This document shows, piece after piece, positions 10,101 to 31,100 of a DNA stretch of 64,000 nt; within the stretch, counting starts at the first letter, position 1, and each line of letters opens with the position of its first letter. Where the stretch lies: positions 2,852,736-2,916,735 of the forward strand of contig OX246740.1 of assembly GCA_945910005.1 (NCBI GenBank). The letters run 5' to 3'. The stretch comes from Isoperla grammatica (taxonomy: Eukaryota > Arthropoda > Insecta > Plecoptera > Perlodidae). The notes beneath the pieces were generated by a model. It ran no database searches and was not told the origin of the DNA. It worked only from the letters and a program-made list of their open reading frames with translations. Both the position numbers and the translations under genes were made by a program.

Positions 10101-13100
10101 ATCTCGCACAAATAGCGTTGGCAGTTCCGCCGTAGCCACACAGAATGCGCCACACTTTTCGCGATGTTTAAGGCCTATGTGGCCCGCCTGCGTTTGGCGC
10201 TACCTGTTGTGTTCCTCTGGAACTGACAAAGCTATTGGCCTTGTACGACAGCCATGAGCTGGTATGGCGCGTTGTATCTGCTGAATATGGACTGATACAA
10301 CTCAAAAGGACACAGGTGTTGGCGAAATAGCATTGACAAGTAAGTAAGTTTGTTGGTATATATAATATGGCTAGAAGCTAACTCTGTCCGGAGCAGAGCT
10401 GAGAACGCCGCAGGGCTTTTTTTGCTGTATTTGTAATGAGTTGTTTGTACAACCCGAGTATTACCCGAGTAGTATATTATTATTATTACCTACCTAGAAA
10501 ATATTGGGTCCGAACCTCGAGCTGCACGCGGTGAGGGGTGATACTGGAGCTGTCTTGAAGGGTGGCATAAATTAAACAACTCAATGAGGCAGTGCATTCT
10601 AGTTGCGTCTAATAGCGTTGTGACATAATTGAAATGTGCGCATGGTGTAACTTATGTTATGGCTCCCGCTATTGTATTTGGGAGTTGGTTCTCATTTTTG
10701 TGAGGCCAGGTAGTTTTAGGGAGTACAGAATTGGTGAAATGTAAGGATCGACTGAAGATCGCTTATTGTCGACTAATGCTCGGACCCACTGTAGAGGTAT
10801 AAAATGTCAATGTTTTATTTCAACAGATGGTATCGATCCGGTGACCTCCTGAATCTTGACCTCCTGAATCTTCTACAATACTTACTCATCGGGTCGCGTT
10901 AAAATGACCATATACATGACGTAGACAAATTTACAATTATACCGTTTATATGTTACCGCCATTTGTAATAGTAATAGTAAATGAATATTTTAATTACGCT
11001 CAATTAATCGAGGATGAAAACAGGTGCCTAAGTAAATAAACTAATTTAAACATATTTTATAAAGTTACCACATCAGAAGTATTATCATACTTACTAAATA
11101 GCTGAGTCCAATAATACCAACTTAATTTTCTACTTCTCTAGTTACCGTCTAATTGAAACCGGTCCACAAGACCACATCTATGGGTTGGTTACCTGGAAAT
11201 TCCTTGCCCATCGGGCGTGGAGGCTTGAGCACTCTAATGGAAGACGGTCTTTACGAATGTGTGAAATAACGTAACGAATCTGTTGATTTTCTTTGAAACA
11301 GCTAGCGTGAAAGAGGCGGTAGTCAATGATCTGGTAATTAACTCACCAATAATGTACCCTTGGTCTCGCAGCTTGGTGACTGTGTAGATGGAGTTTAGAG
11401 AGTTCCCGCCCAGTTCGTAGAAGTTGGAGGTGATGTTGAGCTTGGAACGAGCGCTCCTACCGAGCACCGACGCAACCGTCTCGAACAACGTCTGGGCCGC
11501 GGCAATGTCTTTGTTGCTGATGCCGGAGTAGTCGAGCTCTACTTTCTCGCTGCCGTCGCCAGAATCTACAAGGACACAGCTATGAGTATTTAACCCTTCA
11601 GAGACCAATTCAGTATTTACGAAAATTGAATTTTGAGTTGTACTTTTTTTTTTTACATATTTATTTTACACAATTTTTTGTTTAAAATGCATCTTCAAAT
11701 TTAAATTTCAAAATAAATCTGTGTTATAGTTCAGTTTAATACTTTTTTTTTTAGAAAGTATGTTATTTAACATTTAAATTGTGCGTATAGACCCGGATGC
11801 ACTGAACTTTTAGCGCCGAAATTCTCCGAACAAACATGGCTACTGGTGGAAGACACAATCCATTGATACGTAATGTTTTCTGAAACTATGTTAACACTCT
11901 GAGATTATTAAATCGGAGTTTAAAACATAAATTGATGAATTTGGGAGGAGACATTTATGATCAATGCCAACATCAATCATCATTATAATTAATCATGCCT
12001 ATGTATACTGGCCAAACCATAAGAAGCACATGGTGTCCCCTAAAATTCAGAGAAGGACGGTCGCTCCACACGGTCTATTTCAACGGTATTCACCGCCGGA
12101 TTACCCGATACCTGCATTGTTATTGTCCACTGCATTGACTGCACCAACCGTGAATGGAATGCGACCCCACCACGTCTGACAACAGGCGAGCGATATTATC
12201 ACTACAATACTTTAGGCAGAGAACGGGATGCAACTAGATTTAGGTTGGTAGTTGTCACACGCGTCACTACCCTATTACATAATCCGTGACGACAACATCT
12301 TGCAAGTTAATTTGACGAGACTATACATTGAAATACTGCTACTATAGTTATGTACAAACTAGAAACTATGAATTGTGACAATTCAAATACCGTTGTTGTA
12401 GTTTTCTTCATAACTCTTGAGGAGGGTTTGTCTGTCAGTTTTTCCGTTCACGAGCAGCGGTATCTTCTCGAGCACGATCACTTGTGGCATCTGATAAGGA
12501 GCCAGACTCCGTTGCAAGATGGCTTCGATCTGCGCGGCCGAAGAGTTGTTGTCTGTCTTCACGAATCCCAGCAGTGTCTAAAACCATGGCCATATCAATC
12601 AAATACAAATTGTGTAAAATAGACGGTGGTTGAGTTTGAAATATGGTGGGAGACAGACATAGGTGGAAAGAACTGGCTGGAAGAAAGGACAGTGAAGGCA
12701 TATGGGAACACTGAAGAAGATGTTTCACCAAGATTGGCAGACTGGGAGAATCTGTATGCCCAAGTATTTGGTGGCAACACTCCCTTACCTGACAGTGTTG
12801 GAACAAGGTTTACAGATTTATATGGACGCTAATGTACTCTACTATAAGCGGAATATAATAGCCTTACGAATTTGTGAAACAACATCAAGAATTTGTTGAT
12901 GTTAGTGAAAACAACGTGCATGAAACGGGCGGTTACATAAGGATGTGAAGTAAGCATATAAAAATAGTCAGAATGGGGAAATTATGTAATGAACTACTTA
13001 CAATAAAACTTAGTTTAGGTTCACCTTCATTATTATTCTTGTTTAAAAAAGTAGTAGGGAAGTAATTGTAAGGAGTAGGGTAAAAAGGGGGGTTCTGGGC

Positions 13101-28100: not shown

Positions 28101-31100
28101 CTTATTAGTATTTTAGTTCAATTAAATAAAGAGATTTAAAATTTAAAAAAAAAGTTAGCTCCTCCGTTCAAATCTAAAAATAGAACAGTTGTGCAAAACA
28201 ATGTGGTAGGAAAGAGTGTGGGTTTTAAAATGATTTAGATGTTGAAGAGACTTCACAATTAGGAAGTTATAACTAGAATCGTAATTGGAGAATAGCGTTC
28301 TTTGGTGTATAGGCGGCTATAAATTAGAATAGCTAGCTCCTCCTTTTGAATCTATAAATAGAGGAGTTGAACCAAAACAGTGAGTTAGAAAAGAGTACGG
28401 GGTTAAAAAAAATATATATATATGTATATATTAATTATGTGGATCTCTCTATTAAATACCTATAAATAAAACCATAAATAGTTAATATAGTTCGTTATCT
28501 TATAACAATTAGCTATTAAATTAAAATACTTAGCTCACCATTATGAATCTAAAAATATAACAGTAGATGGATAGAACTGTGTTTTAGGAGAGTATGCGAT
28601 TGAAGCATTTAGGAATCTACAAACAAAATCGTAAGCACCCATTAGAGTTCTTTTTATTGTAACAGAGAGTTTAAATTAGAAATTTTTGCTTCCAATTTCA
28701 AATCTATTAATAGAATGATATGTAGACTAAGACTTCGTTGGGCTTGTGGAAGGCTTGATATTAGTTTGCTCCCCATTTTTAAATCTAAAAATAGAACAAT
28801 TAACTGACAACTGTGTTTAAAGTAAAAGTATGGGATTTACAATTGCTTTTATGTTAATGTGGCTCCACAATTAGGAATCTTTAAATAGAATCGTAAATAG
28901 TAAATAGAGTTTGTTCTTGTATCAAAGAGTTTAAACACAAAATTGTTGCTCCCCATTTCAAATCTATAAATAGAATTATATTTAGGTATCAGACTTCGTT
29001 GGAGTTGTAGGAGGCTTGATATTAGTTTGCTCACCATTTTTTAATCTAAAAATATAACAGAAACTGAGAAACTGTATACAACTGTGTTTTAGGTAAAAGT
29101 ATGGGATTGGCAAATGTTTCAATGTTAATGCGCCTCCTCAATTAGGAATCTATAAATAGAATCATACGTTTAGACAATAGAGTTTGTTAGAGTTTGAATT
29201 ATAAATGTGAGCTCCCCATTTCAAATTTATAAATAGAATCATATGTAGACACAAGACTTCGTTGGGGTTGTAGAAGACATGATATTAGTTTGCTCCGCAT
29301 TTTGAATCTAAAAATAGAACAGTATCTGTGAAACTGTATAGAACTGTGTTTTAGGTAAGAGTATGGGATTGAGAAATGCTTCAATGTTAATGTGGCTCCT
29401 CAATTAGGAATCTAACAATAGAATCATATGTAGGCACAAGACTTCGTTGGGGTTGTAGAAGACATGATATTAGTTTGCTCCGCATTTTGAATCTAAAAAT
29501 AGAACAGTATCTGAGAAACTGTATAGAACTGTGTTTTAGGTAAGAGTATGGGATTGAGAAATGCTTCAATGTTAATATGGCTCCTCAATTAGAAATCTAT
29601 AAATAGAATCGTAAATAAGTGATACTGTTAGTAAGGGCAGTCATGGGTTAAATTCTTTGATGAGTAGAATATTAAATGAAAATAGTGAATTAAATAGAAA
29701 TTTATGGAAATTAAAAATAGTTTTGTGATAGGGTGGTGGTTGTGAGAGGGCGTGTATTCTAATTGAGTCATCAGCCTACTTAACTATTAAATAATATGTA
29801 AAGTATTGTTTGGTATTATAATTATTATTGATTAGTATTATTAAGTATTGGGAAGTATTGATTATTGATGGGGTGGTGGTTGTGAGAGGGCGTGTATTTT
29901 AAATGAGTCATCAGCCTACTTAACTATTAAATAAAATGTAAAGTATTGTTTGGTTTTTAATTATTATTGATTAGTATTAGTAAGTATTGGGAAGTATTGA
30001 TTATTGATGGGGTGGTGGTTGTGAGAGGGTGTGTATTCTAATTGAGTCATCAGCCTACTTAACCATGCCTAGTCTATTAATAGATAAAAGTGATTACACA
30101 TCAACTTCGAGCTGTAACGTGTGAGGCGCGCGCGGATCGACTGGCTCCGCCGGCTCCGCAGAAAAGTGGCCCAGAACCCCCCTTTTTACCCTACTGTAAG
30201 GATACTCTTGTGACTTTTGGTGAAATAGGCCTACTGTAACGCAAACAAAAACTCGTAAAGTACTTGTTTATCTTCACCCACTCTTATCTTCCACTCTTTA
30301 TCTTTTTTACTTCCCAGAGTGACGGCCGACTTATGTTTCTATTACAAGGTTACGAATTGTAACATCGGTCTTCTAACACATACGCGTGGGTGTGTATTGT
30401 AGGGTAGAGACCCGACGGACGCGGTTGTCTTGTCTATGAACGGCATTCTTTTACATTCCGCTACTAGCCGACTAGCGTATGTTGACTGTACGAAGCGGTA
30501 GACAAACAGTCACTGACGTCGGGTCTCTACCTACAAACAATCAATGATATAAGGTCACTTATGAAGGGTAGCATCTTACCTGATTGACCTCTCCTGCTTT
30601 GTAGCACAGCACAACCCCCTTGTCAACACCTGTGACTTCGTTGAGCGCCTTCTCGACCTCTGACAGGTCAACTCTGTGACCTCTGACCTTGACCTGCGAG
30701 TCCGTACGACCTTCATACATGAGGGTACCGTTCTCCATCTTGGCGTAGTCTCCAGTTCGGTAGAGGCGGGAGAAGTCTAAACACACAAAGACACTAGTCA
30801 GATACGCTACACGATAATATAAGGTCTCTATCAGCCTCCAGAAGAACTTGATGTAGGCTATATAATGAGCTGTTGTAATGGAGGGATAAGGAAGTCACAA
30901 AAAAATGATACTAAATTAATTTTAAGCCTCCGAAGTAGACAGCGCTCGGCGAAAACGTGCCCTTTTGAATGTGCCATTCTCCTGCTAATATATAGCTTCT
31001 TTATCAACTCTGATACCCACCTCACTTTGTACCTCTTGTGAAGCCAGGTTCATATCTTAGATCAAATTTTGAAATCATGTTAGTGGAATGTGTCTTTGTT

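Follow-up and report, generated by a model that had tools for sequence, protein, structure and literature searches.

How does one end of a Polinton come to lie twice, in mirror image, within a single chromosomal insertion? The question is raised by a stretch of 64,000 nucleotides from Isoperla grammatica (Plecoptera, Perlodidae; assembly GCA_945910005.1, contig OX246740.1, positions 2,852,736 to 2,916,735), hereafter the window, whose own numbering is used throughout. Positions 13074-30195 of the window (17,122 bp) form a near-perfect palindrome of two inverted arms around a 4-nt spacer, and a 6-bp target-site duplication (TSD) directly adjoins its two outer ends. A sequence-only reading of this DNA had proposed a head-to-head mirror duplication of one Polinton end, with identical outer termini and a GTAAGG duplication outside the pair; the inverted arms were recovered where it had placed them, and both the termini and the duplication are seen at the outer ends. 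The main parts of the unit are the following.

13068..13073, + strand, left TSD GTAAGG (sequence)
13074..20891, + strand, left arm of the palindrome, 7818 bp
13074..13092, + strand, left terminus AGTAGGGTAAAAAGGGGGG (pattern search)
20892..20895, no strand, central spacer CTAT, loop of the putative fold-back (inverted-repeat comparison)
20896..30195, - strand, right arm of the palindrome, 9300 bp including an insertion
30177..30195, - strand, right terminus, AGTAGGGTAAAAAGGGGGG read inward (pattern search)
30196..30201, + strand, right TSD GTAAGG (sequence)

When the arms are compared base by base outside the spacer, 7813 of the 7814 aligned positions are the same, the sole substitution (16360 A / 25436 G) being synonymous in the polB gene that both arms carry. 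The arms are identical over the outer 1784 bp and over the inner 1583 bp, and they differ by 6 bp in an AT microsatellite and by 9 bp in a TAT microsatellite. A chance inverted repeat was rejected as the origin of the palindrome. Near-perfect inverted arms running from a terminus to a small loop, here 4 nt with one substitution in 7814 positions, are the form of a snap-back genome. So few differences suggest a young palindrome, although gene conversion between the arms could mask its age, so that it is left undated. Self-comparison of the window (matches of at least 150 bp, E-value 1e-20) gave only one other inverted match above 80% identity. This is a more diverged inverted repeat at 3170-6178, with arms of ~1.3 kb that are 96% identical and a spacer of ~346 bp; it is composed of 332-bp tandem units, and related units occur again at 53460-54156.

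The unit bearing the TSD is the whole palindrome and not one arm. Because GTAAGG is itself a common hexamer (15 occurrences in the window against 23.7 expected), the weight of the pair lies in its position, and a 6-bp match at two fixed places is expected by chance with a frequency of 4^-6, or about 1 in 4000. The terminus is far rarer, as AGTAGGGTAAAAAGGGGGG occurs in the window only at 13074 (+) and 30195 (-), with 0.01 matches expected by chance, and nowhere else in the window even when three mismatches are allowed; in the viral contigs the pattern had no match (0). The duplication has the 6-bp length characteristic of Polintons, also called Mavericks (Polintoviricetes), and the outer ends, AGTAGGG...CCCTACT, agree with their AGT.../...ACT terminal inverted repeats. 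Vertebrate Mavericks have a 6-bp TSD and AGT/ACT ends (PMC8097293; this and the other sources cited by PMC number are drawn on in part), and the vertebrate (AGT)2 form of the terminus is matched at 5 of 6 bases. Just inside the termini lie tandem repeats, which bear out, on both arms, the iterons of the sequence-only reading.

13206..14045, + strand, subterminal tandem repeats of the left arm (139-bp unit at 13206-13543, 185-bp unit at 13659-14045)
29223..30063, - strand, mirror copy of the subterminal tandem repeats, right arm (tandem-repeat search)

Further inward each arm carries polB, preceded by two tandem modules with a putative promoter role. The polB genes, their modules and the microsatellites are arranged as follows.

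15370..19158, - strand, left polB, open, 1262 amino acids (aa), with C2H2 fingers, a terminal-protein-like domain, a conserved Cys/His domain, an exonuclease and a phi29-type polymerase
19309..19513, + strand, (TAT)n microsatellite of the left arm (tandem-repeat search)
19560..20891, - strand, two tandem upstream modules of polB, left arm (approximate limits; families D9 and D11)
20598-20605 and 19862-19869, - strand, TATATAAG on the reverse strand, one per left-arm module
20896..22227, + strand, mirror copies of the upstream modules, right arm (approximate limits), with TATATAAG at 21182 and 21918
22274..22487, + strand, (AAT)n microsatellite of the right arm, 9 bp longer than that of the left arm (tandem-repeat search and arm comparison)
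22638..26251, + strand, right polB, interrupted by an insertion after 1204 residues that are identical to those of the left polB
27731..27905, + strand, 3' remainder of the right polB, C-terminal residues inside the open reading frame (ORF) 27597-27905

One of the TATATAAG copies is followed by a short ATG frame and a GTAAG donor-like site, and a pyrimidine-AG lies upstream of the right polB ATG at 22638; given these two signals, polB may use a spliced leader.

The structure model of polB (predicted local distance difference test score, pLDDT, of 90.4) supports a protein-primed polymerase, as had been proposed from the letters, and one of the phi29 type: the nine best PDB matches of the predicted polymerase part are all phi29 polymerase, with E-values down to 2.8e-18. 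The N-terminal part has the predicted fold (little-finger) reported for Polinton terminal proteins. Exonuclease and polymerase residues are kept in 22 of 22 members of the polB alignment (A1), and so are D272, C275 and H364, considered as candidate residues of the viral OTU (vOTU) cysteine-protease domain that Polintons carry between the terminal protein and the exonuclease. The window's own polB protein did not reach Pfam DNA_pol_B_2, a domain matched by 1 of the 22 aligned members and carried by 11 of the best 120 of 520 relatives. A profile search of solved structures returned zinc-finger proteins only among the best 60 of 142 matches, and PHROGs gave four endonuclease VII families, two zinc-finger families and one unknown family, most of them weak. 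No ovarian-tumour-type (OTU) protease structure was among the structural matches listed for polB, which does not exclude a viral OTU domain. The assignment to the Polinton type, made in the sequence-only reading, thus draws support from the 6-bp TSD, the AGT/ACT ends and a polB with a phi29-type polymerase.

The closest protein in a database search with polB was 57% identical (among the best 120 of 520 matches). The relatives named there come from a soft coral, an anemone, molluscs, a planthopper and a spider. Phage records gave no match to polB, and a single-protein scan of viral contigs gave no relatives, while the alignment found two loci in the viral contigs. A species-level collection of prokaryote genome contigs yielded 18 more (L003-L020), all titled metagenome-assembled genomes, bacterial and archaeal, and these polB loci probably represent contamination of eukaryotic or viral origin. 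Of the 20 related loci, 14 had their ORFs listed (both viral ones and 12 of the 18 genome-contig ones). Chosen ORFs of 10 loci overall were compared with Pfam, as 7 proteins and then 10 ORFs from 8 loci, and no match was obtained for 4 of the 7 proteins and 5 of the 10 ORFs. An integrase (rve) was found in 3 of the 10 sampled loci: in L001 and L015 it lies tail-to-tail with polB, and in L007 the two genes share a contig. Matches to the packaging ATPase were found in L001 and, weakly, in L010 and L020.

The palindrome itself holds no such company for polB. Five stop-to-stop frames of at least 80 aa are present in the left arm, namely polB, a 118-aa frame antisense to it and three microsatellite frames. 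No ORF of at least 80 aa in that arm corresponds to the RVE integrase of a Polinton, nor to its ATPase, protease or capsid genes, and at an E-value of 0.1 Pfam gave no match for eight shorter left-arm ORFs. The earlier statement that all genes of the other end are missing therefore holds at the level of ORFs, decayed fragments in frames below 50 aa not having been searched. The element is a Polinton derivative and not a complete Polinton. As no integrase, ATPase or capsid ORF was found, the unit reads, from its sequence, as a replicon with two ends that lacks genes for packaging and integration.

The two arms are set apart by an insertion that is present in the right arm only.

26244..26251, + strand, 8-bp duplication GCAGACAT, left side of the insertion
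26252..27722, no strand, hAT-like non-autonomous insertion, 1471 bp, right arm only (arm comparison)
27723..27730, + strand, 8-bp duplication GCAGACAT, right side of the insertion

The extra DNA of the right arm totals 1479 bp relative to the left arm and holds the 1471-bp element, whose ends, CAGTGGCGGCCCGACC / GGTCGGGCCGCCACTG, are 16-bp inverted repeats flanked by the 8-bp TSD GCAGACAT. From the length of this TSD and the type of its ends we take the element to be hAT-like; neither of the two ORFs in it that were compared with Pfam matched a transposase or any other family. It breaks the right polB after residue 1204. Most simply, the insertion postdates the duplication, and it marks the arms as distinct.

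The clue to the origin of the palindrome is its centre, where the arms end within 4 nt of each other. Towards the centre, tandem module 2 matches the left arm as far as CTAT and then continues with ACC; the loop thus consists of four parental bases, and on the parental sequence the right arm begins four bases earlier. Breakpoints unrelated to each other would coincide this closely in ~0.5% of cases (about once in 200) over a region of 1.7 kb. The symmetric centre fits a single short-loop fold-back or hairpin-sealing event, and a fold-back, which the sequence-only reading had also put forward, is the likely maker of the palindrome. Whether the palindrome was extrachromosomal before its insertion is evenly balanced. 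The reading that we favour, at about an even chance, is that of an extrachromosomal snap-back molecule inserted by an integrase acting in trans. A linear, protein-primed replicating Polinton would have kept nothing past a point a little upstream of the promoter modules of polB, where one strand would have folded back on itself, or a broken end would have been sealed as a hairpin, leaving the 4-nt loop. Starting at the terminus, the polymerase could then have copied round the hairpin and back again in a single pass. This would have yielded a two-headed palindrome, itself able to replicate, with identical protein-primed ends and a complete polB gene in either half. The integrase of an intact relative would have joined both ends to the chromosome and created the 6-bp GTAAGG duplication, and later the hAT-like element would have struck the right arm and broken its polB, the left polB being still open.

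The main competitor places the fold-back after insertion and is the less likely course. A break inside an integrated full-length Polinton would leave a left stump that folds with a 4-nt loop and is copied out to the terminus; the copied terminus would then recombine with the right terminal inverted repeat, the rest of the element being lost while both junctions and the TSD are kept. The sequence-only reading had held that no rearrangement after insertion would leave the TSD at the outer ends. That argument fails because the ends of a Polinton are terminal inverted repeats, which provide the homology for the final recombination, so that a post-insertion fold-back also leaves the TSD outside. 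No integrase in trans is required, and yeast offers a precedent in fold-back inversions with short loops that are resolved mainly by homology between repeats (PMC7467729, PMC10622511). However, the median yeast loop is 4 nt in mre11 and 3 nt in sae2 mutants and 36 nt when MRE11 and SAE2 are intact (PMC7467729), which makes a loop of 4 nt less likely where repair is intact. This course also needs a break, 7.8 kb of fold-back copying and, within the right terminal repeat, a further recombination, and the identical outer 1784 bp show no trace of a separately evolved right end, although the terminal repeats were perhaps identical anyway. We therefore prefer the extrachromosomal snap-back, in which the same short loop would form before insertion.

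Other explanations account for less of the structure. A fold-back chimera would likewise show arms that are almost identical, a very small symmetric loop and only one known copy; here a chimeric fold-back read of an ordinary Polinton would have been linked by the assembler, via the terminal repeat, to the genuine right flank. A simple missed-adapter or fold-back read was rejected, as it would repeat the left flank, and the right flank is unlike the left and carries a fitting TSD. The arms moreover differ by the 1471-bp insertion with its own TSD, by one substitution and by two repeat lengths, and fold-back chimeras are not common in the window, where the one other inverted match above 80% has its ~346-bp spacer. 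We hold the palindrome to be very probably real in the genome and an assembly or read artefact to be improbable. Aborted gap repair with two independent breakpoints, in which synthesis would have begun at either terminal repeat, each time on a copy of one and the same end, and the products would have met by end joining, would draw on the interrupted repair and template switching invoked for defective Galileo copies (PMC4168063); it is about as improbable, because ends that arise independently should seldom halt within 4 nt of a common base (the ~0.5% given above). Nested insertion of two Polintons was rejected, since it would leave two TSDs and an asymmetric centre. The least probable explanation is that the family is palindromic by nature, for example as a linear molecule, capped by protein at one end and closed by a hairpin at the other, whose dimer is the integrating form. 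Each half does hold a terminus, a polB with a terminal-protein-like domain, upstream modules and no other recognisable gene. The distant relatives of polB, though, are accompanied by Polinton-type genes, with rve in L001, L015 and L007 and the ATPase in L001 and weakly in L010 and L020, and no long self-inverted match was found in the 20 related loci (the longest spans 268 columns), most of which are short contigs.

Around the palindrome, the window holds a frame at 30562-30801 (-) that reaches the edge of the analysed stretch; it is exon-like and matches adenylate-forming enzymes of the non-ribosomal peptide synthetase type (best PDB match, E-value 1.6e-16), resembling insect Ebony. The palindrome may thus be inserted in or near a host gene. 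Two reverse-transcriptase frames that resemble elements without long terminal repeats lie at 41524-43902 and 44869-45927, and the closest protein to the first is 49% identical (among the best 120 of 311 matches).

Compared with known systems, the unit shares with Polintons the 6-bp TSD, the AGT...ACT termini and a PolB with terminal-protein-like and phi29-type parts near one end, and differs from them in that this end forms a mirror-image pair and that no ORF for an integrase, an ATPase, a protease or a capsid protein was found. Linear protein-primed plasmids, both the cytoplasmic pGKL type and mitochondrial invertrons such as pAL2-1, are likewise capsid-less and carry their own terminal protein and PolB between inverted ends. 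The known ones have single-copy interiors, in contrast to the present unit, which is palindromic throughout its interior and is integrated with a TSD of 6 bp. The cytoplasmic plasmids are described as descendants of polintons that lost the morphogenetic module (PMC11071308), and for the linear mitochondrial ones a panhandle shape of the replication intermediates has been discussed (PMC1864894). Populations of adeno-associated virus (AAV) include symmetric snap-back genomes and head-to-head dimers; their self-complementary half genomes with a terminus, and dimers with a central promoter, resemble the present unit, but AAV is a parvovirus, is not protein-primed and has these forms as packaged particles, in contrast to a chromosomal insertion with a TSD (PMC8235507). 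The yeast fold-back inversions share the inverted duplication, the 3-4 nt loop of mre11/sae2 mutants and the resolution by repeat homology, but they concern chromosome arms and have larger loops with intact MRE11 and SAE2 (PMC7467729, PMC10622511), whereas the present palindrome stops exactly at the termini of a mobile element. In Galileo the inverted repeat of a defective copy can take in internal sequence, yet Galileo is a cut-and-paste transposon of the P superfamily, and the portion of its description drawn on here contains no near-perfect centre over a whole gene (PMC4168063). No palindromic Polinton appeared among the titles and abstract openings listed from searches of the open-licence PMC literature, one of them limited to 2019 onward and none covering Repbase-type entries, and none is described in the portions used of PMC4028283, PMC12721341, PMC8097293, PMC1864894, PMC8235507, PMC4168063, PMC11071308, PMC7467729 and PMC10622511. 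The new class of non-autonomous Maverick suggested in the sequence-only reading cannot be claimed from one copy.

The meaning of the locus depends on which course it took. If the fold-back took place after insertion, the locus would be a clean example from nature of fold-back repair with a short loop, resolved by way of the terminal repeats. It is also conceivable, though rather unlikely, that the palindrome is itself mobile, a capsid-less two-headed mini-Polinton that replicates itself by protein priming and needs only an integrase in trans; with two identical ends and two terminal-protein/polymerase genes, it would need no helper polymerase. Additional copies that share the CTAT centre but are flanked by other TSDs would then be predicted. 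A single fold-back would in that case turn an integrating virus into a linear-plasmid-like element in one step, and the palindrome would be the Polinton counterpart of snap-back defective genomes. Protein-primed replication of Polintons has so far been inferred from their polymerase. If, as we favour, the chromosomal insertion preserves a fold-back replication product, it would provide physical evidence that Polintons pass through an extrachromosomal stage as linear, end-primed molecules; it would also offer a simple way for a virus to become a plasmid-like replicon, and Polintons would gain a class of defective genomes like the snap-back genomes of AAV.

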